DNA of 64,000 bases from Microlunatus flavus (GTDB lineage: Bacteria > Actinomycetota > Actinomycetes > Propionibacteriales > Propionibacteriaceae): positions 124,001 to 188,000 of the forward strand of contig NZ_FOFA01000003.1 of assembly GCF_900110855.1 (NCBI RefSeq), written 5' to 3'. Made by a program: the position numbers and the translations under genes. Position 1 is the stretch's first letter. Each line of letters starts with the position of its first letter. The notes below the pieces were generated by a model, which saw only the letters and a list, made by a program, of their open reading frames with translations, did not search any database and had not been told where the DNA came from. Shown piece by piece: positions 2,987 through 58,162 of the stretch.

Positions 2987-3154
2987 GTGACGAAGTGGGT
3001 GAAGCGCTTCCTGTTCGTGCTCGTCGTCGGCTTCTGCCTGTTCTACGTCGTCAACCAGCCCGAGGGCGCGGCCGCGGCGGTGCGCACGGCGTTCCTGGCC
3101 GTGGGCAAGGCCTTCGGCTCGATCATCACGTTCTTCACCAGCCTCGCCTCCTGA
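2987..3154 (+). CDS. small single-span membrane protein of unknown function
   Basis: A 55-residue protein starting at GTG 2987, 6 nt after a strong GAGGAGGTG ribosome site. Residues 5-21 (KRFLFVLVVGFCLFYVV) form a clear transmembrane helix, followed by a second amphipathic or hydrophobic stretch. It sits 15 nt before the PH-domain gene and is probably co-transcribed with it and the MarR gene. I believe similar small proteins precede PH-domain genes in other actinobacteria, but no function is known to me. Confidence 0.75.
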   Translation: MTKWVKRFLFVLVVGFCLFYVVNQPEGAAAAVRTAFLAVGKAFGSIITFFTSLAS

Positions 3155-3169
3155 CGCGTCGCCGGTCTC

Positions 3170-3697
3170 GTGATCGCCTGGCTGGACCCGCACGTCGACC
3201 AGTACCTGCTGCGCGCCCAGAACGAGTACGTCGTGCGTGAGGTCCGCAAGCACTGGGCCGCCAGCGCGTTCGCCTGGGTGCGGCTCGGCGTCGCCGTCCC
3301 GCTCGCGGTGAGCGCGTTCGCGTACGCGGGTCCGGTGCGCTGGGTCGTGCTCCTGGCGGGGCTCGCGCTCGGCGGGCAGGCGCTGTTCCGGGTGCTGGAC
3401 GAGTACCGCGACCGGTTCGTCATCACCAACATGCGCGTGTTCCGGGTGCACGGGACCTTCAGCACCCAGCGCGCCAGCGTCCCGCTCGGGCGCATCCTCG
3501 ACATCACCGTCAAGAAGCCGCTGCTCGGGCGGCTGCTGAACTACGGTCACTTCGTGTTCGAGTCGGCGGCCCAGGTGCAGGGGATCAGCGAGATCCGCTT
3601 CGTCGCCGACATCGACGGCCGGGACGCGGTGCTGCAGGACACGATGCAGCGCGCCGGCCTGCGCGCGACCGCCCCGGCCCAGGACGACGGCACGTGA
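3170..3697 (+). CDS. bacterial PH-domain membrane protein
   Basis: A 175-residue protein with two hydrophobic segments (about residues 37-65) followed by a bacterial pleckstrin-homology-type domain. The signature is DRFVITNMRVFRVHGTF, then VPLGRILDITVKKPLLGRLL and a VFESAAQ strand, as in YdbS-like proteins. The start is GTG 3170. The gene overlaps the MarR gene by 4 nt (GTGA), so the two are translationally coupled. The function of this family is unknown; membrane anchoring with a cytoplasmic PH-like domain is inferred from the topology. Confidence 0.8.
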   Translation: MIAWLDPHVDQYLLRAQNEYVVREVRKHWAASAFAWVRLGVAVPLAVSAFAYAGPVRWVVLLAGLALGGQALFRVLDEYRDRFVITNMRVFRVHGTFSTQRASVPLGRILDITVKKPLLGRLLNYGHFVFESAAQVQGISEIRFVADIDGRDAVLQDTMQRAGLRATAPAQDDGT

Positions 3698-4239
3698 GCG
3701 CCGAGCCCGACCCCGGAACGGCCGCGGCCGCGGTGCGGCGTCGCCCGAGCCTGCCGTTCGACCCGATCGAGGCCGCGGCGGGCCTGTGGTCGCAGCACTG
3801 GGGCGACGTCCCGCGGATGCGGGCGGTGACCTCGCTGATGCGGGTGCACCAGCTCGTGCTGACCGAGCTCGACGAGCGGCTCCGGCCGCTCGGGCTGACC
3901 TTCGCCCGCTACGAGGTCCTGGTCCTGCTGTCCTTCTCCCGGCGTGGTGCGCTCCCACTGGGCAAGATCGGCGAGCGGCTGCAGGTGCACGCCACCTCGG
4001 TGACGCCGCTGGTCAAGCGTCTGGAGGCGGCCGGGCTGATCCGGCGTACGCCGCACCCCGAGGACGGGCGCGCGGTGCTGGCGACCATCACGCCCGAGGG
4101 GCGCGACCTCGTCGAGCGCGCGACCGAGGTGGTCATGGGTGCGCGGTTCGGCCTCGGGTCCCTGAGCGACGAGCAGTGCGACGACCTGACCTCGCTGCTG
4201 ACCCCGCCGCGCGAGGCCGCGGGCGACTTCGAGGTGTGA
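3694..4239 (+). CDS. MarR-family transcriptional regulator
   Basis: A 181-residue winged-helix protein. The first 40 residues are an extension, followed by the dimerisation helix (LMRVHQLVLTELDERLRPLG), the recognition helix region (GKIGERLQVHATSVTPLVKRLE) and the wing (GLIRRTPHPEDGRAVLATIT). It is coupled by a GTGA overlap to the PH-domain gene. MarR proteins usually sense small aromatic ligands or oxidants and repress nearby genes; the target here is unknown but may be its own operon. A strong hairpin ends the unit at 4251-4309. Confidence 0.9.
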   Translation: MSAEPDPGTAAAAVRRRPSLPFDPIEAAAGLWSQHWGDVPRMRAVTSLMRVHQLVLTELDERLRPLGLTFARYEVLVLLSFSRRGALPLGKIGERLQVHATSVTPLVKRLEAAGLIRRTPHPEDGRAVLATITPEGRDLVERATEVVMGARFGLGSLSDEQCDDLTSLLTPPREAAGDFEV

Positions 4240-4250
4240 CGCTGCACCGG

Positions 4251-4309
4251 CGAAACGCTGAGGGACGACGGCCCGGAACTCGATCCGGGTGTCGTCCCTC
4301 AGCGGTTCG
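4251..4309. terminator. large two-stage hairpin between convergent genes (bidirectional terminator)
   Basis: CGCTGAGGGACGAC (4256-4269) pairs perfectly with GTCGTCCCTCAGCG (4291-4304). Inside it CCCGGA (4272-4277) pairs with TCCGGG (4284-4289), and outside it CGAA pairs with TTCG. It lies 12 nt after the MarR stop and 31 nt from the DUF3349 stop on the other strand, so it can terminate both transcripts. There is no U-tract, which is usual at this GC content. Confidence 0.75.
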
Positions 4310-4339
4310 TGCAGGTCGGCGGCTCGGCCGAGCGGTGGC

Positions 4340-4645
4340 TCAGGCGGCGCCGCGCGGGTCGGCCAGGGGCCACCCGCCCCGGGCGAGGCGCTCACGGACG
4401 CGGGCGACGTCCTCCTCGCAGGGCAGCTCGTCGATCACCTTGGTGATCACCGTGCCGATGTCGGCGTCGTCGACCGGCAGCCGGCCCTCGCGGACCAGCT
4501 CCGTGGCCACCGCGCGCACCTCGTCGTGGCTCAGCCGTCGCGCCAGCACCGCGATCAGCGGCACGTAGTCGTTCGCGGGGATGCCGTCGGGGTAGCCGGC
4601 GCGCAGCCAGCCCACGACCGAGGACACCCAGCCCGTGAGACCCAC
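4340..4645 (-). CDS. DUF3349 family protein (copy 2)
   Basis: A 101-residue soluble helical protein with the DUF3349 pattern: WLRAGYPDGIPANDYVPLIAVLARRL near the N-terminus and a terminal ARVRERLARGGWPLA. It is clearly paralogous to the gene immediately upstream, which has WLEAGYPDGIPPQDRFPLVAL and SARLAAGGWPLA. The start is GTG 4645, 4 nt after the stop of its paralogue, so the pair is one transcript formed by tandem duplication. The family is common in actinobacteria and of unknown function. Confidence 0.85.
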   Translation of the reverse strand: MGLTGWVSSVVGWLRAGYPDGIPANDYVPLIAVLARRLSHDEVRAVATELVREGRLPVDDADIGTVITKVIDELPCEEDVARVRERLARGGWPLADPRGAA

Positions 4646-4649
4646 GGCC

Positions 4650-5003
4650 TCAGTCCGTGGGGTCCGCGGCGTCGGCGAGCGGCCAGCCGCCCGCCGCGAG
4701 CCGGGCCGAGACCCGGGCGACGTCCTCGGGCGACGGGGACTCGTGCAGCTGCCGCGCGACGAGCTGCTCGATCTCGGCGGCGGTGATCGGGTCGTCGCCC
4801 CGCGTCTCGAGCGCGCCGGGCGCGGTGAGGTCGGCGACGATCTCGTGGGTCTGCTCGTCGGTCAGCCGACGACGCAGCAGCGCGACGAGCGGGAAGCGGT
4901 CCTGCGGCGGGATGCCGTCGGGGTAGCCCGCCTCCAGCCACTGCAGGACGCGGACGACGACGTTCGGGGTCTCGGTGCTGGTGGGGCTGTCGGTGCTGGT
5001 CAT
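4650..5003 (-). CDS. DUF3349 family protein (copy 1)
   Basis: A 117-residue member of the same family as its downstream neighbour, with a Ser/Thr-rich N-terminus (about 14 residues) and the conserved GYPDGIPPQDRFPLVALLRRRL and GGWPLAD segments. ATG 5003 is preferred over the in-frame GTG 5009 because GAGGTG is spaced 4 nt before it. The upstream gene ends 7 nt away, so both DUF3349 genes appear to be transcribed with the PiT transporter. A link to phosphate uptake is only inference from position. Confidence 0.82.
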   Translation of the reverse strand: MTSTDSPTSTETPNVVVRVLQWLEAGYPDGIPPQDRFPLVALLRRRLTDEQTHEIVADLTAPGALETRGDDPITAAEIEQLVARQLHESPSPEDVARVSARLAAGGWPLADAADPTD

Positions 5004-5010
5004 GATCACC

Positions 5011-5286
5011 TCACCCGAAGACCTTGATGCCGAACCCGCCGGCGACGATCAGGAAGATGCCGAAGAGCACCGCCGCCACGCACACCGCGAAGAGCACGGT
5101 CGAGCCGGCCCGGCCGGCGCCGGTGGGCGGGGAGGAGTAGGTCGAGCCGTCGGCGGCCAGCGTGCGGCCGTTGCCGAGCACCCGGATGCCGAGCGCGAAG
5201 ACGGCCGGCAGCCCGGCGCCGAGGACGATCCCGGCGACCAGCACCTGCCAGAGGGCCTCGAAGGCCTTGAGGAAGATCTCACCCAT
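5011..5286 (-). CDS. small two-span membrane protein downstream of PiT
   Basis: A 91-residue protein starting at ATG 5286. There are two transmembrane segments (about residues 15-37 and 62-86) separated by a polar loop rich in Gly, Ser and Thr. It lies 20 nt after the PiT stop and 7 nt before the first DUF3349 gene. The arrangement suggests an accessory subunit or companion of the transporter, but I recognise no characterised homologue. Confidence 0.72.
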   Translation of the reverse strand: MGEIFLKAFEALWQVLVAGIVLGAGLPAVFALGIRVLGNGRTLAADGSTYSSPPTGAGRAGSTVLFAVCVAAVLFGIFLIVAGGFGIKVFG

Positions 5287-5306
5287 GATCAAGTCTCCTG
5301 CGCTGC

Positions 5307-6509
5307 TCAGACGCTGACGGTGGAGCGGGTCTCGGCGGTCTCGGACTTCGGCGCCAGACCACCCTCCCACTCCTCGTTGACGTTGTTGTGGTCGATCTTG
5401 GTCTTGCGGGAGTGCCGGAACATCAGCCCGGCGGCCGCCACGAGGACGACGAAGACGAGGCCGATGCCGGCCGCGCCGCCGATGCCGTGCGCGACGGCCC
5501 AGCAGATCGCGCCGACGACCGCGGCGGCCGGGAGGGTGATCAACCAGGCGACGACCATGCGGCCGGCCACGCCCCAGCGGACCTGCGCGCCCGGCTTGCC
5601 GACGCCCGAGCCGAGGATGGAGCCGGTGGCCACGTGCGTGGTCGAGAGCGCCATGCCGAGGTGGCTGGAGGACAAGATCACGGCGGCGGAGGCGAACTCG
5701 GCGGCCATGCCCTGCGGCGAGCTGATCTCGACGAGACCCTTGCCGAGCGTGCGGATGACGCGCCAGCCGCCGATGTACGTGCCCGAGGCGATGGCGAGGG
5801 CGCAGGCGATCTTGACCCACAGCGGGATGCCCTCACCCGGGTTCCAGCTGCCGTACGCGATCAGCGCGAGCGTGATCACCCCCATCGTCTTCTGGGCGTC
5901 GTTGGTGCCGTGCGCGAGGGCGACGAGCGACGCCGACCCGATCTGTCCCCAGCGGAAGCCCTTCTCGCGGCTGTCGGCGGCGACCCGGGCGGTGATCTTG
6001 AAGACCGTCCAGGTGCCGAGCGCCGCGACGAGCCCGGCGACCACCGGTGAGGCGAAGGCCGGGATCACGACCGAGGAGATCACGCCGTCCCACTTGACGC
6101 CGCCGAGGCCGAGCGCGGCGATGGCCGAGCCGATCAGGCCGCCGAACAGCGCGTGCGACGAGGAGGACGGCAGGCCGAGGAGCCAGGTCACGAGGTTCCA
6201 CAGGATGCCGCCGACGAGCCCGGCGAAGACGATCGTGAGGATCGGCACGCCCATGAGCTCGGGGATCGGGGCCCCGTTGGAGCCCTGGATGCTGATGATC
6301 TTGTTGCTGACGGTCAGGGCCACCTCGATGCTGAGGAAGGCGCCGACGAGGTTGAGCACCGCGGCCAGGACGACGGCGGTCTTGGGCTTGAGGGCACCGG
6401 TGGCGATGGACGTGGCCATCGCGTTCGCGGTGTCGTGGAAGCCGTTGGTGAAGTCGAACGCCAACGCGGTGACGACGACGATCACGAGGATGAACAGCGC
6501 TTCGGTCAC
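5307..6509 (-). CDS. pit: PiT-family inorganic phosphate transporter
   Basis: A 400-residue polytopic membrane protein of about ten helices. It has both halves of the PiT signature: FTNGFHDTANAMATSIATGA near residue 20 and VALAHGTNDAQKTMGVITLA near residue 200, plus the GxPSSSSHAL and STTHVATGSILGSG repeats. PiT carriers import metal-phosphate complexes coupled to protons. The GTG start at 6509 follows an AAAGAT -10-like box by 6 nt with no ribosome site, so a leaderless mRNA is likely. Longer starts would add a Pro/Arg-rich, non-membrane leader that lacks family support. Confidence 0.92.
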   Translation of the reverse strand: MTEALFILVIVVVTALAFDFTNGFHDTANAMATSIATGALKPKTAVVLAAVLNLVGAFLSIEVALTVSNKIISIQGSNGAPIPELMGVPILTIVFAGLVGGILWNLVTWLLGLPSSSSHALFGGLIGSAIAALGLGGVKWDGVISSVVIPAFASPVVAGLVAALGTWTVFKITARVAADSREKGFRWGQIGSASLVALAHGTNDAQKTMGVITLALIAYGSWNPGEGIPLWVKIACALAIASGTYIGGWRVIRTLGKGLVEISSPQGMAAEFASAAVILSSSHLGMALSTTHVATGSILGSGVGKPGAQVRWGVAGRMVVAWLITLPAAAVVGAICWAVAHGIGGAAGIGLVFVVLVAAAGLMFRHSRKTKIDHNNVNEEWEGGLAPKSETAETRSTVSV

Positions 6510-22099: not shown

Positions 22100-24676
22100 G
22101 TGCGTGCCATCCGTCGTTTCACCGTCCGTCCCGTGCTGCCGGAGGTGCTCAAGCCGCTGGGCGACCTCGCCCGGAACCTGCGCTGGTGCTGGAACACCGA
22201 CACCCAGGACCTGTTCCGCTCCGTCGACCCCGAGCTGTGGGAGGCGTCCGGCCACGACCCGGTCCGCCTGCTGGCCGACGTCTCGGTCGAGCGGCTCGAG
22301 CAGCTGAGCCGCGACAAGCGGTTCCTCAAGAACCTGCGCGGCGTCGAGGCGGACCTGGCCGACTACCTGGCCGGCGACCTCTGGTACTCCGGCTACGCCG
22401 CGGAGACCGAGTCCGCGCCCCGGGGCATCGCCTACTTCTCGCCCGAGTTCGGCATCACCGAGGTGCTGCCGCAGTACTCCGGCGGCCTCGGGATCCTGGC
22501 CGGCGACCACCTCAAGAGCGCGTCCGACCTCGGCGTGCCGATCATCGGCGTCGGCCTGCTCTACCGCCAGGGCTACTTCCGCCAGTCGCTGAACGCCGCC
22601 GGCTGGCAGCAGGAGACGTACCCGCTGCTCGACCCGAACGCCCTGCCGCTCACCCTGCTGCACGACGACGAGGGGCCGGTCACGGTCGAGGTCGGCCTCG
22701 GCGGCGGGCGCGTCCTGCACGCCCAGGTCTGGCTGGCGGCCGTCGGCCGCGTGCCGCTGCTGCTGCTCGACTCCGACGTCGAGGCCAACGCCGGGCCGGA
22801 GCGCGAGACGACCGACCGCCTGTACGGCGGCGGCACCGAGCACCGGCTGGCCCAGGAGACGCTGCTGGGCATCGGCGGCGTCCGCGCCGTCCGCGCGTAC
22901 TGCAAGCTCACCGGCACCGCGTCGCCGGAGGTCTACCACACCAACGAGGGCCACGCCGGCTTCCAGGGCCTGGAGCGGATCCGCGAGCAGACGATGGCGG
23001 GTGTCGAGTTCGACACCGCGCTAGAGTCGGCCCGCGCCGGCACGGTCTTCACCACCCACACCCCGGTCCCGGCCGGCATCGACCGCTTCCCGGTCGACCT
23101 CGTGCGCCACCAGTTCGCCGACTTCGGGCTGCCGGTCGACCGCGTGCTCGCGCTGGGCACCGAGGACTACGACGGCGGCGACCGCGGCATGTTCAACATG
23201 GCCGTCATGGGCTTCCGCCTCGGCCAGCGCGCCAACGGCGTCTCGCTGCTGCACGGCGAGGTGTCGCGCGAGATGTTCCAGGGGCTGTGGAACAGCTTCG
23301 ACACCTCCGAGGTCCCGATCACCTCGATCACCAACGGCGTGCACCACCCGACGTGGGTGCACCGCGACCTGCTGGCCCTGCTCGAGGCGCCCTCGGGCAG
23401 CACCAGCGAGACGGTCATCGACGGCTACGACTGGAACGGGCTCGCGGCCGTCGACGACAAGACGATCTGGGACCTCAAGCGCACGATGCGCTCCGAGCTC
23501 ATCGCCTTCACCCGGCGCCGGCTCGCCGAGAGCAGCGCCAACCGCGGGCTCGGCACCGAGTGGGTCGGCGGCGTGCTCGACCCCGACACGATCACCTTCG
23601 GCTTCGCCCGCCGGGTGCCGTCGTACAAGCGCCTCACCCTGATGCTGCGCGAGCCGGAGCGGCTGAAGGCGCTGCTGACCGACCCGAAGCACCCCATCCA
23701 GATCGTCATCGCCGGCAAGTCGCACCCGGCCGACGAGGGCGGCAAGGCGCTGATCCAGCAGATGGTGCAGTTCGCGGACGCGCACGACGTGCGCGAGCGC
23801 ATCGTCTTCCTGCCCGACTACGACATCGGCATGGCCAAGCCGCTCTACCCGGGCTGCGACGTGTGGATGAACAACCCGCTGCGCCCGTACGAGGCCTGCG
23901 GCACCTCCGGCATGAAGGCCGCGCTGAACGGCGCCGCGAACCTCTCCATCCTCGACGGCTGGTGGGACGAGTGGTACGACCCGGCGTTCGGCTGGGAGAT
24001 CCCGTCGGCGGAGTCGGTCGACAGCCCCGAGCAGCGCGACGACCTCGAGGCGCGGGCGCTCTACGACATCATCGAGAACGAGATCGTCCCGCGGTTCTAC
24101 GACACCGACGGCAAGGGCATCCCGAAGCGCTGGGTGCAGATGTTCCGCGACACGGTCGCGGGCCTCGGCCCGAAGGTCCTCGCCACCCGCATGGTGCGCG
24201 ACTACGTGACGCACCTGTACGCGCCGTCCGCCGCGTCCTCGCGCGCGCTCGAGGCCCAGACCGGCGGTCCCGAGGCCCTCGCGGACTGGAAGCGCAAGGT
24301 TCGCGACGCGTGGGGCGGCGTGGTCGTCGACCACGTCCAGTCCCTCGAGGGCGAGCAGGTCGAGGTCAACACCCCGATCCACGTGTCCGCGCTGGTCCGG
24401 CTCGGCTCGCTCTCGCCCGAGGACGTCGAGGTGCAGCTCGTCACGGGCCGCGTCGGTTCCGACGACCAGCTCCGCGAGCCGCGGATCAACCCGTTCCCGG
24501 AGGGCACCGACGTCGACGGCGGGCTGCGCCGCTACGAAGGCACGGTCCAGGCCCGCCGGGCGGGTTCGATCGGCTACACGGTCCGCGTCGTCCCGCACCA
24601 CCCGCTGCTCGCGAGCACCGCGGAGATGGGCCTGGCGACGGTTCCCAGCGGCATGGCCTCCCCGCCGTCCGCTTGA
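22100..24676 (+). CDS. glgP: alpha-glucan phosphorylase
   Basis: An 858-residue GT35 phosphorylase of the actinobacterial (long-loop) type. The N-terminus is RAIRRFTVRPVLPEVLKPLG, YFSPEFGITEVLPQYSGGLG forms the active-site entrance and NPLRPYEACGTSGMKAALNG carries the Lys that binds pyridoxal phosphate. It releases glucose-1-phosphate from alpha-1,4-glucan ends. GTG 22100 is preferred over GTG 22091 because a TAGGGT box ends 7 nt upstream and overlaps the earlier GTG. It is divergently transcribed from the glgE operon. Confidence 0.95.
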   Translation: MRAIRRFTVRPVLPEVLKPLGDLARNLRWCWNTDTQDLFRSVDPELWEASGHDPVRLLADVSVERLEQLSRDKRFLKNLRGVEADLADYLAGDLWYSGYAAETESAPRGIAYFSPEFGITEVLPQYSGGLGILAGDHLKSASDLGVPIIGVGLLYRQGYFRQSLNAAGWQQETYPLLDPNALPLTLLHDDEGPVTVEVGLGGGRVLHAQVWLAAVGRVPLLLLDSDVEANAGPERETTDRLYGGGTEHRLAQETLLGIGGVRAVRAYCKLTGTASPEVYHTNEGHAGFQGLERIREQTMAGVEFDTALESARAGTVFTTHTPVPAGIDRFPVDLVRHQFADFGLPVDRVLALGTEDYDGGDRGMFNMAVMGFRLGQRANGVSLLHGEVSREMFQGLWNSFDTSEVPITSITNGVHHPTWVHRDLLALLEAPSGSTSETVIDGYDWNGLAAVDDKTIWDLKRTMRSELIAFTRRRLAESSANRGLGTEWVGGVLDPDTITFGFARRVPSYKRLTLMLREPERLKALLTDPKHPIQIVIAGKSHPADEGGKALIQQMVQFADAHDVRERIVFLPDYDIGMAKPLYPGCDVWMNNPLRPYEACGTSGMKAALNGAANLSILDGWWDEWYDPAFGWEIPSAESVDSPEQRDDLEARALYDIIENEIVPRFYDTDGKGIPKRWVQMFRDTVAGLGPKVLATRMVRDYVTHLYAPSAASSRALEAQTGGPEALADWKRKVRDAWGGVVVDHVQSLEGEQVEVNTPIHVSALVRLGSLSPEDVEVQLVTGRVGSDDQLREPRINPFPEGTDVDGGLRRYEGTVQARRAGSIGYTVRVVPHHPLLASTAEMGLATVPSGMASPPSA

Positions 24677-24903: not shown

Positions 24904-25176
24904 TCAGGCGGCGTCGGCGCCGTCCGTCGGCAGCGGGGTCGCGTCGGCCAGGACGTGGTCGATCTGCTCGGCACTGGCCGGGTCCCGGAAGCGGCTCAGG
25001 CGGTGCGAGCCGTCGCAGAGGGGCTTGAGCCGGCTCCGGCCGCAGCGGCACAGGGCCAGCACGGACCGGTCGTGCTCGACCGTCGTGCCGTCGACGGTGC
25101 GCAGCTGGGCCGGCCCGCGGACGAGCAGGGGCCCGTCCGGGCAGATGGTGACGGTGACCTCCTCGTCGGCCCTCAC
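24904..25176 (-). CDS. CDGSH iron-sulfur domain protein
   Basis: A 90-residue protein with the CDGSH motif CRCGRSRLKPLCDGSH (three Cys and one His that bind a 2Fe-2S cluster), preceded by a short beta-rich part (VTVTICPDGPLLVRGPAQLR). It begins with a GTGA overlap at the stop of the haem-oxygenase-like gene, so the two are translated together. Proteins of this type carry a labile, redox-active cluster and could serve as electron donor or cluster carrier for the partner; that role is inference. Confidence 0.88.
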   Translation of the reverse strand: MRADEEVTVTICPDGPLLVRGPAQLRTVDGTTVEHDRSVLALCRCGRSRLKPLCDGSHRLSRFRDPASAEQIDHVLADATPLPTDGADAA

Positions 25177-26255
25177 GCCGCCACCTCCAGGACGGTGCGC
25201 AGGCTGCTCGCCCCGGTCTCCCAGGCGCCGAGGACGTGCTGGGCGAACAGGGTGTCCACGTACGCGGCGCAGCGCGCGCCCCACACGACGTCACCGGCCA
25301 GGGCGGGCTCGACCCGAGCCAGGCCGGCCGCGAGGTCGTGCAGGGCGATCTGCTCGTGGACGGCGTCGGCGACGACGTGCTCGTCGAAGAAGCGCGCGGC
25401 CGCCTCGCCGCCGCCGAGGCGGCGGTGGCCCCGGGCGTAGCGGGCGTTCGGCGTCGAGGACGACATCTCGAACGCGGCCAGGTGGCCGACCAGGGCGCCG
25501 CGCCAGCGGCGGTGCAGCCCGAGCAGGGAGATGACGTTCGTGGCGAGCAGGGTGACCGCCGGGACCTGGTCGAGGTGCGCGCCGTAGGTCGTGGCGACGC
25601 CCCAGTCGGCGAGCAGCGCGCGGAAGAGCTGGGCGTGCATGGCGGAGGCGACGCCGCCGCCGTACTCGTCGGCCTGGATCGTCACGAGGGCGCCCTTGAC
25701 CTGCCCGCTCAGCCGCGGGATCGCCCAGCTGTGCGGGTCGGCCTCCTTGAGGTGGTAGAGCGAGCGGTGCACGAGGAACTCGCGGAACTGCTCCGCCGTG
25801 GCGCTGCGCATCAGGTGCTTCGACAGCGAGGGCTCGCCGTCGGCCTCGGCGAGCGCGGTGAGCCCGGCGACGACGCCGGCGACGTCGACCTCCTCGGTGG
25901 GTCGTGCCACGCCGAGCTCGAGCCCGGCCACGAGCTGCTCCTCCCAGCGCCCGCGCGCCCACAGCAGCTCGGGGTGCCACTCCCAGCGTTCGTCGACGCC
26001 CTCCAGGCCGCGGTAGTGGAGCTCGTAGGCGAGCCAGAGCGCGAGCTGCAGGTCCTCGTCGCAGCAGGCGTGCGCCGCCTCGCCCTCCCACGCCAGGTGG
26101 CGGAGGTCGAGGCTGCGGTGGGGGTCGCGACGCAGCGCGGCGAGCAGGGCGGTGGTGAGCGGCCCCCGGGGCTGCGGGAGCGGTGCAGGGGTGTCGTGCA
26201 GCAGCGCGGCCCGCGAGGGGGCGACGGCGGTGTCGACGGTCACGGCGTCCTCCAT
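25173..26255 (-). CDS. haem-oxygenase-like iron-containing redox enzyme
   Basis: A 360-residue all-helical protein of the iron-containing redox enzyme family (haem-oxygenase-like fold, Haem_oxygenas_2 type). Candidate metal ligands are Glu/His in REFLVHRSLYHLKEADPHSW, the Glu in IQADEYGGG and the Glu/His pairs in FFDEHVVADAVHEQ, fitting a two-iron oxidase or oxygenase. ATG 26255 has no clear ribosome site; a GTG a few codons later is possible. It is coupled to the CDGSH gene (GTGA). Known relatives oxidise amino acids or fatty acids, but the substrate here is unknown. Confidence 0.82.
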   Translation of the reverse strand: MEDAVTVDTAVAPSRAALLHDTPAPLPQPRGPLTTALLAALRRDPHRSLDLRHLAWEGEAAHACCDEDLQLALWLAYELHYRGLEGVDERWEWHPELLWARGRWEEQLVAGLELGVARPTEEVDVAGVVAGLTALAEADGEPSLSKHLMRSATAEQFREFLVHRSLYHLKEADPHSWAIPRLSGQVKGALVTIQADEYGGGVASAMHAQLFRALLADWGVATTYGAHLDQVPAVTLLATNVISLLGLHRRWRGALVGHLAAFEMSSSTPNARYARGHRRLGGGEAAARFFDEHVVADAVHEQIALHDLAAGLARVEPALAGDVVWGARCAAYVDTLFAQHVLGAWETGASSLRTVLEVAA

Positions 26256-26386: not shown

Positions 26387-27340
26387 TCAGACGTGCGCCG
26401 TGAGATGCCCCCGGAGGTGCGCCACCACCTCGTCGAGCGCCTGCGTCGCGGCGTCCTCGAAGCGCGGGATCGCCATGAACCCGTGCAACGCCTCCGGGTA
26501 GACCACCGTCCGGACGTCCACCGCGGCGTCCTCGAGCACCGCCGCGTAGCGCAGCGCGTCGTCCCGCAGCGGGTCCTGCCCGGCGGCCACGACCAGCGTG
26601 GGCGGCAGGCCGCGGTGGTCGGCGGCATGGACCGGGCTGACCCGCGGGTCGTCGAGCGCGATGGAGGTGGGCAGGCCCTGCGGCAGGTACTGCCGCCCGA
26701 ACCAGTCGATCGACGTCTTCGGCAGCACGGGGGCGTCGGCGAGCTCGGCGACCGACGCCGCGCTCATCGTCATGTCGGTGGCGGGGTAGAGCAGCGCCTG
26801 CGCCGCGAGCCGGTCGCGCAGGGCGAGCGCCACGAGGGCCGCGAGGTTGCCGCCCGCGCTCTCCCCGACCACCCCGACCCGGCGGGCGTCGGCGCCGAGG
26901 GAGGAGGCGGTCCGGTCGGCGTCGTCGAGGAGGTACGACACCGCCGCGAGCGCGTCCTCGTACGCGGCGGGGGCCGGGTCCTCGGGCGCGAGCCGGTAGT
27001 CCACCGAGACCACGACGACGTCGGCCATGGCCGCCAGGTGCCCGCAGAACCAGTCGGCCCCGGTGAGGTTGCCCAGGACGAAGCCGCCGCCGTGCAGGTT
27101 CACGACCAGGGGCAGCAGCGCGGACGCGCGGCGGGGCCGGTACACGCGGACGGGCACGGCGGGGTCGACGGGCAGCACGCGGTCGACGAGGCGCACGCCG
27201 CGGTCGACGGGTCCGAGCACCAGGCGTGCCAGCGGGCGGGGGAGCTCGCCGCGGGCGCGCCGCAGGTACGCCTCGGTCGGCGGGTCGGGCCGCGGCAGCC
27301 GGCGGCCCAGCGAGGTCAGGACCCGGGTGCGACGGTTCAC
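26387..27340 (-). CDS. HSL-family alpha/beta hydrolase (GDXG-type esterase)
   Basis: A 317-residue hydrolase of the hormone-sensitive lipase family. The oxyanion motif is NLHGGGFVLGN, the nucleophile elbow is VGESAGGN (catalytic Ser), the acid is in AGQDPLRDD and the His in LHGFM. There is no signal peptide, so it acts in the cytoplasm, probably on short acyl esters. The start is GTG 27340. It lies 29 nt after glgX on the same strand and may be co-transcribed with it, with no obvious metabolic link. Confidence 0.88.
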   Translation of the reverse strand: MNRRTRVLTSLGRRLPRPDPPTEAYLRRARGELPRPLARLVLGPVDRGVRLVDRVLPVDPAVPVRVYRPRRASALLPLVVNLHGGGFVLGNLTGADWFCGHLAAMADVVVVSVDYRLAPEDPAPAAYEDALAAVSYLLDDADRTASSLGADARRVGVVGESAGGNLAALVALALRDRLAAQALLYPATDMTMSAASVAELADAPVLPKTSIDWFGRQYLPQGLPTSIALDDPRVSPVHAADHRGLPPTLVVAAGQDPLRDDALRYAAVLEDAAVDVRTVVYPEALHGFMAIPRFEDAATQALDEVVAHLRGHLTAHV

Positions 27341-27369: not shown

Positions 27370-29481
<2,112 letters not shown>

Positions 29482-51772: not shown

Positions 51773-53686
51773 TCAGGGGTCGAGGACGTCGTCGAGGAAC
51801 AGCAGCATCGCGCCCAGCAGGCGCCGCCGGGACGAGGCACGGCGGTACTCGTGGCCCTCGCCGTGCAGCGTCAGGAGCTCGACGCGGCGTCCGAGCGTCC
51901 GCAGCGCGTCGACGACCTGCGTCGCCTCCCCGTACGGGACGTTCGTGTCGAGCTCGCCGTGCACGACGAGCACCGGCACGTCGATGTTCTCGACGCGCTG
52001 CATCGGTGAGAGCGCCCGCAGCAGCGTCCAGTCGCGCGCCGGGTCGCCGTACTTGGTGACCGCCGCGGCCGCGATCCAGGGCTCGGTGTCGCGGTAGAAG
52101 GTGTGCAGGTCCGACATGCCGCAGATGTCGACCCCGCCGGCGAAGACGCCGGGGTGGAAGGCGAGCATCGCCAGGGTGAGGTAGCCCCCGTACGAGCGCC
52201 CCGTCACGGCGACCCGCCCGGGTTCGGCGACGCCGAGCCGGACGAGGAAGTCCTCGCAGGCGAGCACGTCGTCGAAGGCGTCACGACGTCCGTGCACGTC
52301 GTCGGCGTGGACGAACGCGCGGCCGAAGCCCGACGAGCCGCGCACGTTGGGCGCGAAGACCGCGATGCCCGCCGCCGCCATCGCCTGGTGCTGCGGGTTG
52401 AACGTCGGGCGCTCCTGCGCCTCCGGCCCGCCGTGCAGGCTCAGCACCGCCGGCCCCGGCCCGGTCCAGCCCGGCGGGCGGTAGAGCCAGCCCGTGAGCG
52501 GCAGCCCGTCGCGCCCGTGGAGGAACTCCAGCGTCGGCGACACGAGGCGGGCCGCCGGTGCCGCGGGCCGCGCGGTCGCGAGCGTCCAGGTGCGGCTGGC
52601 CACGTCGAGGCGCCACAGCTCGCGCGGCCGTTCCGGGCCCTCGACGGCCACCAGCGCGGTCGAACCGTCGCGGCTCAGCAGGGCGCCGCTGACCACCGCA
52701 CCGGGCAGGCCGTCGACGACCTCGCCCTTCCCGGTCCAGGCGTCGACGAGCTCGAGCTCGGAGCGGCCGCCGGCGACGTTCCAGACGCAGAGCAGCGTAC
52801 GGCCGGCGTCGTCGGCGTCGAGGCCCTCGAGCTCGGCGTCGGGACGCGGTGCGAGGACGCCGGACTGCCCGCGCCAGCCGGCCGGGCCGAGCGGGATGGC
52901 CACGAGCTGGCGGCGGGGGAGGCCGGCGTCCGTGGCCAGGTACGCGATCAGCGGCGGGCCCGCGGGACGCCCGGGCGGGTCCGGGTCGCCGGGCGGCGCC
53001 GGCCGGACGAACGCCCGGTCGGTCGACCCGGTCGCCGGATAGGGCAGCAGCGGGTGGTCGGCGTCGGCGACGCGGTCGACGACCACGCAGAACTGCCGCC
53101 CCCGCTGGCCGTCACGCAGGACCACGTGGTCCTCGTCGACCGACAGGTCGAGCACCGAGATCAGCTCGCCGGTCGCCAGCGCGTACATCTCGCCCGACGC
53201 CGGGTCGACGAGGTAGGCCCGGGTCGGTTCGCCGGCCGTCTCGCCGGGGACGGACACGCTGAGCCGGTGGCCGCTGCGGGTCCAGGGACCCAGCTCGGCG
53301 TGGACCGTCGTCGAGCCCGCGACCCGGCGGGCGTCGGAACCGTCGGGGCGCACGACCCACACCTGCGTCCGGACGCCGCCGCCCGTCGCCACCGCGCAGG
53401 CCAGCCAGCCGCCGTCGGCGGACCACTCCACCTCGACGACCGGGTCGTCGCCCAGCGCGACCTCTCGGGCCTCGGGCAGCGCGGCACCGCCGGCTCCGTC
53501 TCCGCCGCTGTCCGGCAAGTTCTGCACGAACAGCCGCGGGCTCCCGGTGCGGTCGCTGACGAAGGCGATCCGGGTGCAGTCGGGCGAGAGCGTCGGCGCC
53601 CAGCTGCCCCAGGCGTCGACCAGCTCTTCGCCCAGCCGGACGGCGTCCGCGAGCGCCCGGTCCTCGGTGCGCACGTCAGCCGACAC
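51773..53686 (-). CDS. S9-family prolyl oligopeptidase-like peptidase
   Basis: A 637-residue cytoplasmic peptidase. An N-terminal beta-propeller (about 20-370, with TOLB/PD40-like repeats such as SPDCTRIAFVSDRTGSPRLF) precedes an alpha/beta hydrolase domain (about 375-637). The nucleophile is in VTGRSYGGYLTLAML, the Asp in VHGELDTNVPYGEA and the His in LHGEGHEYR. GTG 53686 overlaps the amidotransferase gene by 11 nt, so it is translationally coupled. In the N-acetylglutaminylglutamine system the equivalent third gene is an M42 peptidase; here an S9 enzyme takes that place. Confidence 0.9.
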   Translation of the reverse strand: MSADVRTEDRALADAVRLGEELVDAWGSWAPTLSPDCTRIAFVSDRTGSPRLFVQNLPDSGGDGAGGAALPEAREVALGDDPVVEVEWSADGGWLACAVATGGGVRTQVWVVRPDGSDARRVAGSTTVHAELGPWTRSGHRLSVSVPGETAGEPTRAYLVDPASGEMYALATGELISVLDLSVDEDHVVLRDGQRGRQFCVVVDRVADADHPLLPYPATGSTDRAFVRPAPPGDPDPPGRPAGPPLIAYLATDAGLPRRQLVAIPLGPAGWRGQSGVLAPRPDAELEGLDADDAGRTLLCVWNVAGGRSELELVDAWTGKGEVVDGLPGAVVSGALLSRDGSTALVAVEGPERPRELWRLDVASRTWTLATARPAAPAARLVSPTLEFLHGRDGLPLTGWLYRPPGWTGPGPAVLSLHGGPEAQERPTFNPQHQAMAAAGIAVFAPNVRGSSGFGRAFVHADDVHGRRDAFDDVLACEDFLVRLGVAEPGRVAVTGRSYGGYLTLAMLAFHPGVFAGGVDICGMSDLHTFYRDTEPWIAAAAVTKYGDPARDWTLLRALSPMQRVENIDVPVLVVHGELDTNVPYGEATQVVDALRTLGRRVELLTLHGEGHEYRRASSRRRLLGAMLLFLDDVLDP

Positions 53687-55460
53687 CGTGGTGCTGCAGC
53701 CACATCTCGAGCAGCCCGAGCTGCCACAGGGCGTTGGAGCCGAGACGGGTGCGGGTGCGGTTCGGGTCCTTCAGCAGCGACTGCACCGTGTCGGCCCGGA
53801 ACAGCCCGCGCCGTCGCGCGGCCGGGTCGGTCAGCGCGTCGCGGACCCGGTCGAGCATCGGGCCCTGGAGCTGGCGGATCGCCGGCACCGGGAAGTAGCC
53901 CTTGGTGCGGTCGATGACCGCATCGGGCACGACGCCGCGGGCGGCACGCTTGAGCACGCCCTTGCCGCCGTCGGCGAGCTTGAGCTCCGGCGGGATGCGC
54001 CCGGCGAGCTCGACCAGCTCGTGGTCCAGGAAGGGCACCCGCGCCTCGAGGCCCCAGGCCATGGTCATGTTGTCGACCCGCTTGACGGGGTCGTCGACGA
54101 GCATGACCGTCGTGTCGCTGCGCAGCGCGGCGTCGACGGCGGTGTCCGCGCCCGGCGCCGCGAACCGCTCCGTCACGAACGCGTACGGGGCGTCGTGGTC
54201 GACGAGCCAGTCCCGCGACAGCAGGCCGGGCATCGCCGACCAGCGACGGTCGAAGAAGACGTCCGCGTACGCCTCGACCGCGTCGGCGCGGGGGACCCCG
54301 ACCAGCGGCGGGTACCAGTCGTAGCCGCCGAGCACCTCGTCGGCGCCCTGCCCGGACTGGACGACCTTGACGCTCTTCGAGACGTCCTCGCTCAGCAGGA
54401 AGAAGGCCACGCAGTCGTGGCTGACCATCGGCTCGCTCATCGCGGCGACCGCGGCGTCGACGCCGGGCAGCAGGCGGGCGTCGTCGATGGCGATGCGGTG
54501 GTGGTCGGTGCCGAAGTGCTCGGCGACGAGGGTGGAGTACTCGAACTCGTCGCCGGACTCGCCGCCCGCGCTGTCGAAGCCGATGCTGAACGTCTTGAGG
54601 TCGTGCTGCCCGGCCTCGGCGAGCAGGGCGACGACCAGCGACGAGTCGATGCCCCCGGACAGCAGCACGCCGACCGGCACGTCGGCGACCATCCGCCGGT
54701 CGACCGCGACGCGGAGCTTCTCGAGCAGCGCCTCCTCCCAGTCGCGGCTGCTCCAGCCGGCGCGGTCGGGGTCGCGGGTGAACGACGGCGTCCAGTAGGT
54801 GTGCTCGCGCCACGTGCCGTCGGGCTCGACGACCCGGACGGTCGCGGGCGGCAGCTTCTTGACGCCGTTGAGGATCGTGCGCGGCGGCGGCACGATGCTG
54901 TGGAAGCTCATGTAGCAGGCGAGCGCGACCGGGTCGATCGAGGTGTCGGTGCCGCCGCCGGCGAGCAGCGCGGGCAGCGACGACGCGAACCGCAGCCGCT
55001 CGGGCGTCTGGTCGAGGTAGAGCGGCTTGATGCCCAGGCGGTCGCGGGCCAGCACGAGCCGGCCGCTGGCGTGCTCCACGACCGCGAAGGCGAACATGCC
55101 GAGGAAGTGGTCGACGCACGAGGTGCCCCACTGAGAGTAGGCCTTGGCGATCACCTCCGTGTCGGAGGTCGAGAAGAAGCTCATGCCCAGGCCCTGGAGC
55201 TCGTGGCGCAGGGCCTTGTAGTTGTAGATGCAGCCGTTGAAGGCGACCGTCAGGCCGAGCGCGGAGTCCACCATCGGCTGGGCGCCCGCCGGGCTCAGGT
55301 CGATGATCGACAGCCGTCGGTGCCCGAGCGCGACCGGCCCGCGGGCCCACACCCCGGAGCCGTCGGGCCCGCGCCGCTGCATCGCCTCGGTCACGCAGGC
55401 GCAGGCGGCGACGTCCGCCGACCGGCCGTCGAACCGGATCTCCCCGGACAGTCCGCACAT
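53676..55460 (-). CDS. asparagine synthase-like amidotransferase of the N-acetylglutaminylglutamine type
   Basis: A 594-residue enzyme. The class II glutaminase domain has the N-terminal nucleophile Cys2 (MCGLSGEIRFDG), RRGPDGSGVW and NGCIYNY; the synthetase domain has the PP-loop LLSGGIDSSLVVALL and SGQGADEVLGGYDWYPPL. By my recollection of the families, NGCIYNYKALRHELQ and ALACYMSFHSIVPPPRTILN point to the amidotransferase of the osmolyte N-acetylglutaminylglutamine amide pathway (AsnO, trio_amidotrans) rather than plain AsnB. It should turn a peptide carboxylate into an amide. ATG 55460 follows GAGGTGAGAG. Confidence 0.82.
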   Translation of the reverse strand: MCGLSGEIRFDGRSADVAACACVTEAMQRRGPDGSGVWARGPVALGHRRLSIIDLSPAGAQPMVDSALGLTVAFNGCIYNYKALRHELQGLGMSFFSTSDTEVIAKAYSQWGTSCVDHFLGMFAFAVVEHASGRLVLARDRLGIKPLYLDQTPERLRFASSLPALLAGGGTDTSIDPVALACYMSFHSIVPPPRTILNGVKKLPPATVRVVEPDGTWREHTYWTPSFTRDPDRAGWSSRDWEEALLEKLRVAVDRRMVADVPVGVLLSGGIDSSLVVALLAEAGQHDLKTFSIGFDSAGGESGDEFEYSTLVAEHFGTDHHRIAIDDARLLPGVDAAVAAMSEPMVSHDCVAFFLLSEDVSKSVKVVQSGQGADEVLGGYDWYPPLVGVPRADAVEAYADVFFDRRWSAMPGLLSRDWLVDHDAPYAFVTERFAAPGADTAVDAALRSDTTVMLVDDPVKRVDNMTMAWGLEARVPFLDHELVELAGRIPPELKLADGGKGVLKRAARGVVPDAVIDRTKGYFPVPAIRQLQGPMLDRVRDALTDPAARRRGLFRADTVQSLLKDPNRTRTRLGSNALWQLGLLEMWLQHHGVG

Positions 55461-55618: not shown

Positions 55619-58162
55619 TCATCTCTCACCTCTCGTCTCGTCGAGCTCCGGGTCGAGCACGACCCACGTGTCCTTGGCCCCGCCGCCGCGCGAGGAGTTC
55701 ACCACCAGCGAGCCCTCGGGCGCCATCCGGGTCAGGCCGAGGCCGGCGACGACGACGTCGTCGGGACCCGTGCCGGTGACGTAGGCGAAGACGCGCAGGT
55801 CCACGTGCCGCGGCTGCAGGAGGCTGCCCGCCAGGGTGGGGTGCGACGAGAGCGCCACGACCTCCTGCGCGACCCAGCCCGCGGGGTTCGCGGCGATCTC
55901 GGCGCGGCGGGCGGCGACCTCGGCCGCCGACGCGTCGGGCCCGATGAGCACCCCGGCCCCGCCGTGGCCGTCGACCGGCTTGGTGACCAGCTCGCCGACC
56001 CGGTCGAGCACGACGCGGTACTCGGCCGCGTCCCCGGTGCGGTAGGTGGGCACGGACTCGATGACCGGGTGCTCCTCGAGGTAGTAGCCGATGAGCTCGG
56101 GCACGTAGCAGTACATGGCCTTGTCGTCGGCGACGCCGTTGCCGGGCGCGTTCGCCAGCCGGACGCCGCCCGCGACCGCCACCTCGAACGCCTCCGCGCC
56201 GACCGGACGGCCCGCGGCGTCGACCAGGTCGACCAGCTCGACGTCGAGGCGCAGGTAGAGCGCGTCGAGGCGTCGCCCGTCGCGGTGCCGCACGGTTCCG
56301 TCCGCCACCTCGAGGTCGTCGGCCGTGACGAGCACGAGACCGGCGCGCTCGGCGAGCAGCGCGTGCTCGAACCAGGCCGAGCTGCCCGGCCCGCTGGAGA
56401 GCAGCGCCGCCGTACCCGCGTCCTCGCCGCCGAGCAGGGCGCGGCGCAGCAGGGGCATCGCGGCACCGGGGTCCTGCAGGCCCGCCGGGCGCGGCAGGTC
56501 CGGCATGACCGCGTCCAGGAGCTCGCGGACGGCGAGGGCGTACCCCGCCCCGGACGGGTTGCGCACGTTGTCCTCCAGGACGCGCCAGCCGCCGAACTCG
56601 TTGCGCACCAGGTCGAAGCCCATCACCGGCGCACGCACCGCGCCGGTCGGCAGCCGCCGGGCCTCCTCACGCCAGCCGGGGGACCCCGTGACCAGCTCGG
56701 GCCGCAGGACGCCGTCGCGCACGATCCGCTGCTCGCCGTAGACGTCGCGCAGGAAGGCCTCGATCGCCCGGGCGCGCTGACCCAGGCCGCGGACGAGGTC
56801 GTCCCACTCGTGGGGCGACACGATGCGCGGGACGAGGTCGACGCTGAACGGCTGCTGCGTCCCGTCGACCCCGAAGGTCATGCCGCGCTCGTCCACCCAC
56901 GCGTCGCGGGCCCGGGTCCGCTCACCGATCCGGTCGGCGCCCAGGTCGCGGAACACCTCGACCAGCGCCTCGTACGCGGGCCGCGGGCGGCGGTCCGAGC
57001 CCACCGCCTCGTCGCCGGCGCGGGAGCGGTAGCGACGCAGCTCGGGCGCCGCCGGTCGCGGACCCTCGGCGGGGCCGCGCGTCTCGGCCACGACGAGCTC
57101 CATGACGTCGGTGAGCCGGCCCCGCTCGGCGTACGCGGCGCGCTGGCGGTCCGCCGAGTTGCCGCGGGCCAGCGTCGCCTCGGCCAGCCACCGCACCTCG
57201 TCGGCGTCGCCCAGCTCGGCCAGCGGCCCGGACAGCCGCTCGACCATGGCCCACACCGCGTCGGCGGCCGGGACGGGCCTCGGGTGCAGGCTGTGGTCGA
57301 GCAGGTTGCCGCGCAGCCCGCCGCGCGCCGCCTGCCACAGGGCCGCGCGGTGCACCGGGGCCGGGACCGGCTGGTGCGGCCGGCCCTCGAGCACGTCGAT
57401 CTCGGCGGCCCGGACGGCGGCGCGGAACAGCCCGGCTATGAGGATCGCGTCGTCGACCACCGGGCAGGCGTCGCAGACCCGCAGCTCCAGCGTCGGCGCG
57501 TGCGACGAGGGCCGCACGTCGAAGTAGGCCATCTTCTCGTCGGCGATGACGCCGCTGCTGATGAGGTCGGCCAGCAGCGCGTCGTACTCGGCGGCCGAGG
57601 CCAGCGGGCCGGTCGCGCCCGCGGTCGGCCAGCGCTGCCAGATGATCGTGCGGATCGAGGAGTAGCCGGTGTCCTGCTCGTTGAAGTACGGCGAGCTCGC
57701 GGACAGCGCGGTGAGCACCGGCAGGTCGCGGGCGACGCGCTGCATGATCTCGACGGCCAGGTCGCGGTCGGAGACGCCGACGTGGATCTGCAGCCCGCAG
57801 ATCAGCTGCTCGTCGACGAGCATGCGGTACTGCTCCTGCATCCGCCCGTAGCGCCCGGTCGTCGTCAGCTCGAAGTCGGCGAAGGCCGCGCTCGGCGCCG
57901 TGCCCGCCGCCGCGATGCCGACGTTGTCCTTGGCCGCCTCGGACACCAGGAGCCGGCGCAGCCGGAGCAGCTCGGCCCGGAGCCCGTCGAGGGTGGTCAC
58001 CACCTCGGTGTTCGTCTCGACCGTGGTCCGCTGGATCTCGGCGGAGTAGTTCTCGCCCGGGAGCCGCGACAGCAGCTGCGGCGCGCGCCCGACCAGCTTC
58101 TGGCTGTCCAGGTCGACGAGGTGCAGCTCCTCCTCGGCCCCCAGCGTCAGCTCGGCGGGCAC
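55619..58162 (-). CDS. fusion of GCS2-type carboxylate-amine ligase and circularly permuted ATP-grasp ligase
   Basis: An 847-residue two-ligase fusion. Residues 1 to about 365 form a glutamate-cysteine ligase type 2 (YbdK-like) domain: TLGAEEELHLVDLDSQKLV, VETNTEVVTTLDGLRAEL, CGLQIHVGVSDRDLAVEIM and SSHAPTLELRVCDACP. Residues from about 385 form a circularly permuted type 2 ATP-grasp domain (DUF404/DUF407 type): PFSVDLVPRIVSPHEWDDLV, GFDLVRNEFGGWRVLEDNVR, NAPGNGVADDKAMYCYVPEL and VTKPVDGHGGAGVLIGPDAS. Both halves make peptide-like bonds with ATP. The start is GTG 58162 after GGGGGAA. Product unknown; the neighbouring amidotransferase suggests an amidated small peptide. Confidence 0.85.
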   Translation of the reverse strand: MPAELTLGAEEELHLVDLDSQKLVGRAPQLLSRLPGENYSAEIQRTTVETNTEVVTTLDGLRAELLRLRRLLVSEAAKDNVGIAAAGTAPSAAFADFELTTTGRYGRMQEQYRMLVDEQLICGLQIHVGVSDRDLAVEIMQRVARDLPVLTALSASSPYFNEQDTGYSSIRTIIWQRWPTAGATGPLASAAEYDALLADLISSGVIADEKMAYFDVRPSSHAPTLELRVCDACPVVDDAILIAGLFRAAVRAAEIDVLEGRPHQPVPAPVHRAALWQAARGGLRGNLLDHSLHPRPVPAADAVWAMVERLSGPLAELGDADEVRWLAEATLARGNSADRQRAAYAERGRLTDVMELVVAETRGPAEGPRPAAPELRRYRSRAGDEAVGSDRRPRPAYEALVEVFRDLGADRIGERTRARDAWVDERGMTFGVDGTQQPFSVDLVPRIVSPHEWDDLVRGLGQRARAIEAFLRDVYGEQRIVRDGVLRPELVTGSPGWREEARRLPTGAVRAPVMGFDLVRNEFGGWRVLEDNVRNPSGAGYALAVRELLDAVMPDLPRPAGLQDPGAAMPLLRRALLGGEDAGTAALLSSGPGSSAWFEHALLAERAGLVLVTADDLEVADGTVRHRDGRRLDALYLRLDVELVDLVDAAGRPVGAEAFEVAVAGGVRLANAPGNGVADDKAMYCYVPELIGYYLEEHPVIESVPTYRTGDAAEYRVVLDRVGELVTKPVDGHGGAGVLIGPDASAAEVAARRAEIAANPAGWVAQEVVALSSHPTLAGSLLQPRHVDLRVFAYVTGTGPDDVVVAGLGLTRMAPEGSLVVNSSRGGGAKDTWVVLDPELDETRGER

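Follow-up and report, generated by a model that had tools for sequence, protein, structure and literature searches.

The window analyzed here, a stretch of 64,000 nucleotides from Microlunatus flavus, contains a gene for a protein of the haem-oxygenase-like HDO superfamily and, directly behind it, a gene for a small CDGSH protein, and these two form a real, conserved two-gene unit whose pairing is not due to chance. The enzyme class of the HDO is well supported, and the chemistry and the electron-transfer role of the pair are good hypotheses. The proposal that the pair is a two-component oxygenase, in which a diiron, probably N-oxygenating HDO would be served by the CDGSH protein as its dedicated redox partner, is one that we regard as evenly poised.

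The Gene Pair and Its Setting

The HDO gene lies on the minus strand (26255-25173), starts with ATG and encodes 360 amino acids, of which residues 158-331 match PF14518, the iron-containing redox enzyme family, with 180.6 bits (cut-off 28.9) in a Pfam profile search; a Pfam match to a cupin domain was not found in this protein. The CDGSH gene (25176-24904, minus strand) starts with GTG and encodes 90 amino acids, residues 14-59 of which match PF09360 (zf-CDGSH) with 65.4 bits (cut-off 29.5, Pfam). The motif, CRCGRSRLKPLCDGSH, from which a [2Fe-2S] cluster is expected, is the only one present, and PF09360 was the sole Pfam match at an E-value of 1, with no added domain, so that the protein has the composition of a type 4 CDGSH protein (one motif, three Cys and one His, single domain). 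A longer reading frame of 126 amino acids listed from position 25284 was rejected as a mechanical extension, the likely start being the GTG at 25176. Neither protein matched an NCBIfam model at an E-value of 1, and each of the two families had one match in the genome of the window (E 0.001).

The two genes share a GTGA stop/start overlap of 4 nt (25173..25176, minus strand), and GGAGGT precedes the GTG by a few bases; the overlap suggests that translation of the CDGSH gene may be coupled to that of the HDO gene. The identical overlap was present in 12 of the 19 loci, the window included, in which the HDO is followed, on the same strand and at most 400 nt on, by the start of a CDGSH motif, and a Streptomyces plasmid has a 4-nt overlap in the reverse order, CDGSH followed by HDO. 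The initial annotation, which had described two genes overlapping by 4 nt, the second with a CDGSH motif, was accurate on both points.

Upstream of the HDO gene on the same strand is a hormone-sensitive-lipase-like alpha/beta hydrolase of 317 amino acids (26387..27340), which scores under the NCBIfam cut-offs and is not among the recurrent partners described below. The pair had also been described as set among glucan genes, and this is correct locally, as a GlgX glycogen debranching protein (27370..29481, minus strand) and an alpha-glucan family phosphorylase (22133..24676, plus strand, convergent with the pair) flank it, but it does not extend to the relatives in general. A glucan family (GlgX or phosphorylase) is common to the window and 3 of 80 other loci, because of which these genes are kept as local context only. 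The GlgX family is near the HDO in two Arthrobacter loci (L055, L076) and one Micromonospora locus (L071), as in the window, and the phosphorylase family is near it in the Arthrobacter loci too; this is either an old common setting or coincidence.

Fold and Predicted Diiron Site

A structure model of the HDO, made with AlphaFold2 on 39 alignment rows, is helical (pLDDT 91.9, pTM 0.90), and its top matches are HDO structures, in agreement with the haem-oxygenase-like helical fold of the superfamily. The best match in the PDB is HrmI (Z 32.9, 2.5 Å over about 309-313 residues), followed by SznF (Z 29.1), RohS (Z 28.3), the related entry 3BJD (Z 26.6) and FlcD (Z 25.9), with CADD, BesC, UndA and PolF at Z 16-20 (UndA 16.5, PolF 16.4). 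Foldseek likewise ranked HrmI above RohS and SznF, and these above FlcD.

Seven residues of the window HDO are predicted iron ligands from alignment to SznF: E171, E197, H207, E263, H293, D297 and H300 align by phmmer with SznF E189, E215, H225, E281, H311, D315 and H318 (SznF numbers counted from the printed alignment), and the last six of these we take to be iron ligands. All 102 CDGSH-linked rows keep each of the seven equivalents, and of the 142 rows in total 141 or 142 do, one locus (L095) being the lone exception at six positions. By this alignment and conservation, the protein has at least three His and at least three carboxylate ligands, as is expected of an HDO. The partner of E171 in the alignment, SznF E189, is like RohS E93 an extra iron ligand, a Glu of auxiliary helix 2 that these two N-oxygenases have and AetD lacks (PMC11611611), and E171 is kept in 102/102 CDGSH-linked rows. 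By its predicted ligands, the window HDO would belong with SznF and RohS in the 3H/4C class, whose ligand set is thought to be present in around a quarter of HDOs (PMC13108848). HrmI, the best structural match, is however a 3H/3C enzyme (PMC13108848), and the fold alone does thus not settle the chemistry of the window HDO.

A diiron-type helical fold with conserved Glu and His residues had been claimed from the letters of the window, with loss of the proposed ligands in alignments as a possible refutation. The claim agrees with the model and its intact predicted ligands, and such loss was not seen among the CDGSH-linked rows.

Conservation of the Pairing

Among the best 80 of 229 HDO relatives in genome_contigs, a CDGSH motif lies within 1.5 kb of the HDO in 72 loci, with CDGSH detected by motif, tblastn or PF09360. 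In 7 of the 8 misses one side has <2 kb of contig, and the eighth (L052) is a full miss. Both families were also searched for in 296 genomes of the phylum, in order to reach beyond close relatives, and in 148 genomes of the class, two samples that overlap and are not independent. The phylum sample has an HDO in 62 genomes and CDGSH in 95, the latter in 45 of the 62 HDO-positive vs 50 of the 234 HDO-negative genomes, and CDGSH is within 5 kb of the HDO in 38 of the 62. The class sample has an HDO in 83 genomes, CDGSH in 93 and both in 72, with CDGSH within 5 kb of the HDO in 70 of the 83 HDO-bearing genomes and not in the other 13, and 72 of the 78 CDGSH places in its HDO-positive genomes adjoin an HDO. 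CDGSH is also found in 21 of its 65 HDO-negative genomes, and the idea of perfect co-occurrence was dropped on this count. Among genomes of the class in the first sample, CDGSH was found in 24 of 25 with an HDO, the exception having an HDO match of merely 42.7 bits, and in 0 of 10 among those listed without one. The conserved pairing in other genomes on which the initial annotation had let its reading depend is therefore observed both at the level of loci and at the level of genomes.

Genomes with more than one HDO were also found. Two of the class sample (G104, G255) have two HDO copies each, every copy with its own CDGSH, and in the phylum sample one genome (G075) has two HDOs, one of them with CDGSH within 5 kb, and another (G215) has two with none. 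The distance matrices of 92 HDO/CDGSH pairs are correlated with r 0.80, part of which is explained by shared ancestry, whilst the highest of 1000 permutations gave 0.19. Plasmids carry the pair as well: it was seen in 4 of 14 plasmid records (two from Streptomyces, one from Kitasatospora and one from Curtobacterium), 7 of the others being without annotation.

Tree History and Rows Without CDGSH

The tree of 142 HDO rows, of which 102 are CDGSH-linked, 27 are without CDGSH within 4.5 kb and 13 have too little flank, is a quick build with SH-aLRT support only, and its counts of changes are minima. CDGSH presence changes at least 5 times in this tree and arrangement (side or strand) at least 17 times, compared with 3 and 16 changes in the 121 rows available before those of family f79 were included. 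Arrangement thus changes more often than presence, and the linkage between HDO and CDGSH outlives rearrangement. The 27 rows without CDGSH within 4.5 kb, out of 129 with enough flank, include many fetched for that reason, and as L083-L102 and L136-L147 were mostly fetched for having no CDGSH found near the HDO, the tree gives no estimate of frequency.

Two groups in the tree are CDGSH-free and keep the ligands, the one of 19 rows (14 demonstrated, 5 with too little flank) and the other of 11 rows of family f79 (10 demonstrated, 1 with too little flank), so that the CDGSH partner is not universal. There are further single rows of this kind (L052, L099 and L153, the last with a CDGSH 7.7 kb off). 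In f79, 11 of the 12 HDO-positive genomes have no CDGSH match genome-wide at an E-value of 1e-6, and of the 13 HDO matches in the class sample without CDGSH within 5 kb, 11 are from this family. Seven positions differ between 19 CDGSH-free and 93 CDGSH-linked rows (>80% vs <40%), and five of these (202, 267, 292, 299 and 301) are within 5 residues of a ligand in sequence. A ferredoxin or Rieske replacement was not recognized among the direct neighbors inspected in part of the CDGSH-free loci.

One genome of the class sample (G255) has two HDO-CDGSH pairs of different lineages (L118 and L119). In one pair, the HDO is nearest Arthrobacter rows and its CDGSH is nearest Actinotalea/Cellulomonas rows; in the other, both are nearest a row of f5, the family to which the genome itself belongs. 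This is a weak hint that the pair may move as a unit, and co-transfer in this genome was given no weight (distances of 0.47-0.50, the HDO row being a long branch).

Recurrent Neighbors

Genes in the fetched loci were called with a home-made codon-bias caller, not a standard gene finder, and, for 142 loci, families found no farther than 2.5 kb from the HDO (675 kb) were compared with those found only in the remaining flanks (837 kb). Three families recur near the HDO: a HemK2/MTQ2-type methyltransferase (43 loci vs 6 only beyond), a YbdK-type ligase (33 vs 1) and a glycosyltransferase-like protein (19 vs 0). Two methyltransferases and two ligases that were scanned pass the NCBIfam cut-offs of TIGR00537 (HemK2/MTQ2) and TIGR02050 (YbdK), respectively; the glycosyltransferase-like protein was scanned in two cases, with a sub-threshold Pfam hit of 17.5 bits in one and no hit in the other. 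Zinc-alcohol-dehydrogenase-like and short-chain-dehydrogenase-like families are found in 13 and 11 loci, at a median of 2-3 kb, and when the 30 largest neighbor families were read by eye, none stood out as a flavoprotein of the ferredoxin-reductase type. In the NCBI annotation, the plasmid of Streptomyces NBC_00984 has a VOC protein, HDO, CDGSH and a HemK2/MTQ2 methyltransferase together, and that of Kitasatospora NBC_00039 has a YbdK ligase, a dimethylargininase, HDO, CDGSH and a HemK2/MTQ2 methyltransferase. As a general partner DDAH was rejected, being present in 1 of 142 loci, and is a lead only.

In locus L144 (genome G371, ~3013-6300 with the HDO turned to plus), consecutive genes, each overlapping the next by 4 nt as in an operon, encode a CysK-like PLP enzyme (PF00291), a carbamoyltransferase of the aspartate/ornithine type (PF02729, PF00185), the HDO and the CDGSH protein; the row is possibly a compact pathway for an oxidized ureido amino acid. 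These various partners would act on amino acids and nitrogen groups, in keeping with an HDO that oxygenates nitrogen in an amino-acid-derived compound.

The CDGSH-free HDOs have neighbors of their own. In 8 of 12 f79 loci fetched (L136, L137, L140-L143, L146 and L147), a protein of 240-320 amino acids with an NPPY motif is encoded directly upstream of the HDO, with a 4-nt overlap in 6 of the 8, and a Pfam match at 1e-5 was absent from the two that were scanned. The NPPY motif is typical of amino-methyltransferases, and from this motif the protein looks like a second, unrelated methyltransferase-like partner. In another locus (L093, G276), the CDGSH-free HDO is followed by a 504-amino-acid protein of GCS2 type, whose Pfam match is weak (29.6 bits), and by one that resembles AstE/AspA (27.8 bits), and the association with a ligase may, by this weak match, recur there with a different ligase. 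Three more CDGSH-free HDOs (L086, L088, L089) adjoin genes for Ku and a LigD primase-polymerase of end joining, as scanned in L088 and assigned by shared neighbor family in the other two.

A full set of these companion enzymes was sought in the genome of the window and rejected: a glycosyltransferase-like relative (60% identical) and a YbdK relative (49%) are on other contigs, a YbdK relative 38% identical is inside the window but 30 kb from the pair, and methyltransferase hits are weak (best 69.6 bits). The glycosyltransferase-like relative (L130, contig C15, 7875-8981) is far from the HDO, and its surrounding genes are presumably the isoprenoid-precursor genes Dxr and IspG. The window also has an 847-amino-acid fusion of a YbdK/GCS2-type ligase and a circularly permuted ATP-grasp domain (55619-58162, minus strand), followed by an asparagine-synthase-type amidotransferase (53676-55460, minus strand), which together resemble a pathway of its own for a small amide or peptide, at a distance of 30 kb from the HDO and CDGSH genes.

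Proposed Mechanism and Alternatives

In the mechanism proposed, the HDO would bind two irons through its 3-His/4-carboxylate set and activate O2, with the diferrous enzyme and O2 giving a peroxo species that oxidizes a substrate nitrogen, a step modeled on SznF and HrmI (PMC13108848). The substrate would be a small amino-acid-derived metabolite, nitrogen oxidation being most likely by fold and ligand set, and in the relatives a methyltransferase, carboxylate-amine ligase or glycosyltransferase-like protein would handle substrate or product. The CDGSH protein, presumably a [2Fe-2S] dimer, would reduce the diferric HDO to the diferrous state between turnovers, by analogy with MboA. Thus, of the earlier reading of the pair as an oxygenase with its own electron carrier, the oxygenase part is favored by the diiron-type fold, the ligands and the pairing, whilst the electron-carrier part is a role that the CDGSH protein would take. 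HDOs studied so far need no protein effector according to a review (PMC13108848), and the CDGSH-free HDO groups count against a strict requirement for CDGSH. The genomes with CDGSH and no HDO likewise count against the reading.

The main rival to this reading, unlikely in our view although to be taken seriously, is that the CDGSH protein is a maturation or sensing factor, which would provide iron or an iron-sulfur cluster, or protect or load the labile diiron site of the HDO. CDGSH proteins of the mitoNEET kind transfer clusters, and HDO groups without CDGSH are easier to reconcile with an aid than with an obligate donor. The diiron clusters of many HDOs are, moreover, labile (PMC13108848). 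A supply of iron would serve many enzymes, however, yet CDGSH places in the HDO-positive genomes of the class are nearly all next to an HDO (72/78), and both HDO copies of G104 and of G255 have a CDGSH of their own. It is improbable that the pair is instead a stress-defense module that removes peroxide or another oxidant, with no dedicated metabolite pathway, in the manner of Acinetobacter DtpC, a predicted HDO that limits hydrogen peroxide in dried cells (PMC13232832). In 4 of the 24 genomes (G049, G172, G249, G255) a SigB/F/G match lies no more than 6 kb from the HDO, against an expectation of ~0.45 from 228 matches in 171 Mb, both among the matches listed, and two plasmid copies have SigB/F/G, STAS, GAF-ANTAR, SpoIIE-phosphatase or CsbD genes around them. 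This sigma count is nevertheless post hoc, made on the loci that suggested it, and so is not independent, whilst the recurrence of ligases, methyltransferases and glycosyltransferase-like proteins near the HDO, and the operon-like row of L144, speak for a metabolite pathway.

The chance is similarly small that the HDO, with CDGSH still as donor, oxidizes carbon (by desaturation, lyase reaction or rearrangement) and not nitrogen. HDO chemistry is diverse (PMC13108848), MboA forms an alkyne (PMC13185094) and FlcD, a carbon-excising HDO, matches the model at Z 25.9, but UndA and PolF (Z 16.5 and 16.4) are far below HrmI, SznF and RohS, and the window HDO shares its seventh predicted ligand with SznF and RohS. 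Lastly, it is barely credible that mere chance, or descent within a glycogen locus, has made the two genes neighbors, as might be thought from the GlgX and alpha-glucan phosphorylase families shared around the pair by the window and the Arthrobacter loci L055 and L076. With a glucan family in 3 of 80 other loci and a linkage that survives at least 17 changes of arrangement, this explanation is contradicted by the 72 of 80 loci, by the counts of the class sample and by the tree.

The two-component oxygenase reading, if true, would have wider meaning. We know of no earlier physiological oxygenase partner of a CDGSH protein, and the window HDO would be the first; the bacterial CDGSH proteins with a single motif would gain a defined function. 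The CDGSH protein would likewise join MboB as another, unrelated kind of redox partner for HDOs, a fast-growing enzyme superfamily in which a dedicated redox partner is described for one member, MboA (PMC13185094). The recurrent neighbors make the substrate testable, and suggest a nitrogen-containing, amino-acid-derived compound of many actinobacteria. We would tentatively go further, in a view that we hold with some doubt, and suggest that Actinomycetota have a widespread, undescribed family of small-metabolite pathways around a two-component, CDGSH-dependent diiron N-oxygenase, with partners in different lineages that would be the methyltransferase, the YbdK-type ligase and the glycosyltransferase-like protein, and in single cases the carbamoyltransferase or dimethylargininase.

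Comparison With Known Systems

A description of the HDO-CDGSH pair was not found in the open-access literature as far as its text was available, subscription papers being mostly outside this scope; one paper names a CDGSH gene (PMC11854999) and another an HDO-type gene (PMC10445470), each in another setting. The central HDO domain of the streptozotocin N-oxygenase SznF (PDB 6VZY) has the same fold as the window HDO, is 3H/4C and aligns at all seven ligands, but is 19% identical, and the window protein is without a cupin domain match. No CDGSH partner of SznF is mentioned in those parts of the literature that were available, whereas the window HDO has an adjoining CDGSH. The azomycin N-oxygenase RohS (PDB 9PFX, 9PFW) has the same fold and the extra auxiliary-helix Glu, at 18% identity, and the lysine N-oxygenase HrmI (PDB 9N1X), at 17% identity, is the best structural match and yet 3H/3C.

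For the CDGSH protein, the closest known relative considered is the type 4 protein RsCISD (PDB 3TBM, an assignment made from chain length), which has a single motif like the window protein and matches it by phmmer with an E-value of 2.5e-8. The window protein has an Arg after the His ligand, where >90% of type 4 proteins have Lys or Arg, and type 4 is the commonest CDGSH kind in the table for Actinobacteria (PMC3174974). The available text of that paper gives no function or partner for type 4, whilst for the window protein a partner enzyme is proposed here.

The nearest precedent to the pair as a whole is MboA/MboB of mangotoxin (2026), in which an HDO, a dedicated redox partner and amino-acid ligases are encoded in one cluster (PMC13185094). 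MboA stalls at the alkene without its reductase MboB, which is needed for full turnover, and according to its authors MboAB is possibly the first dedicated pair of HDO and redox partner (PMC13185094). As in that system, a candidate partner gene adjoins the HDO of the window. The partners are however unrelated: MboB is a flavin-containing NAD(P)H reductase that also has an Fe2S2 cluster, whereas the partner proposed here is a 90-amino-acid protein whose sole Pfam match is zf-CDGSH. The ligases differ too, those of the MboA cluster being ATP-grasp proteins and those of the HDO-CDGSH loci being of the GCS2/YbdK type.
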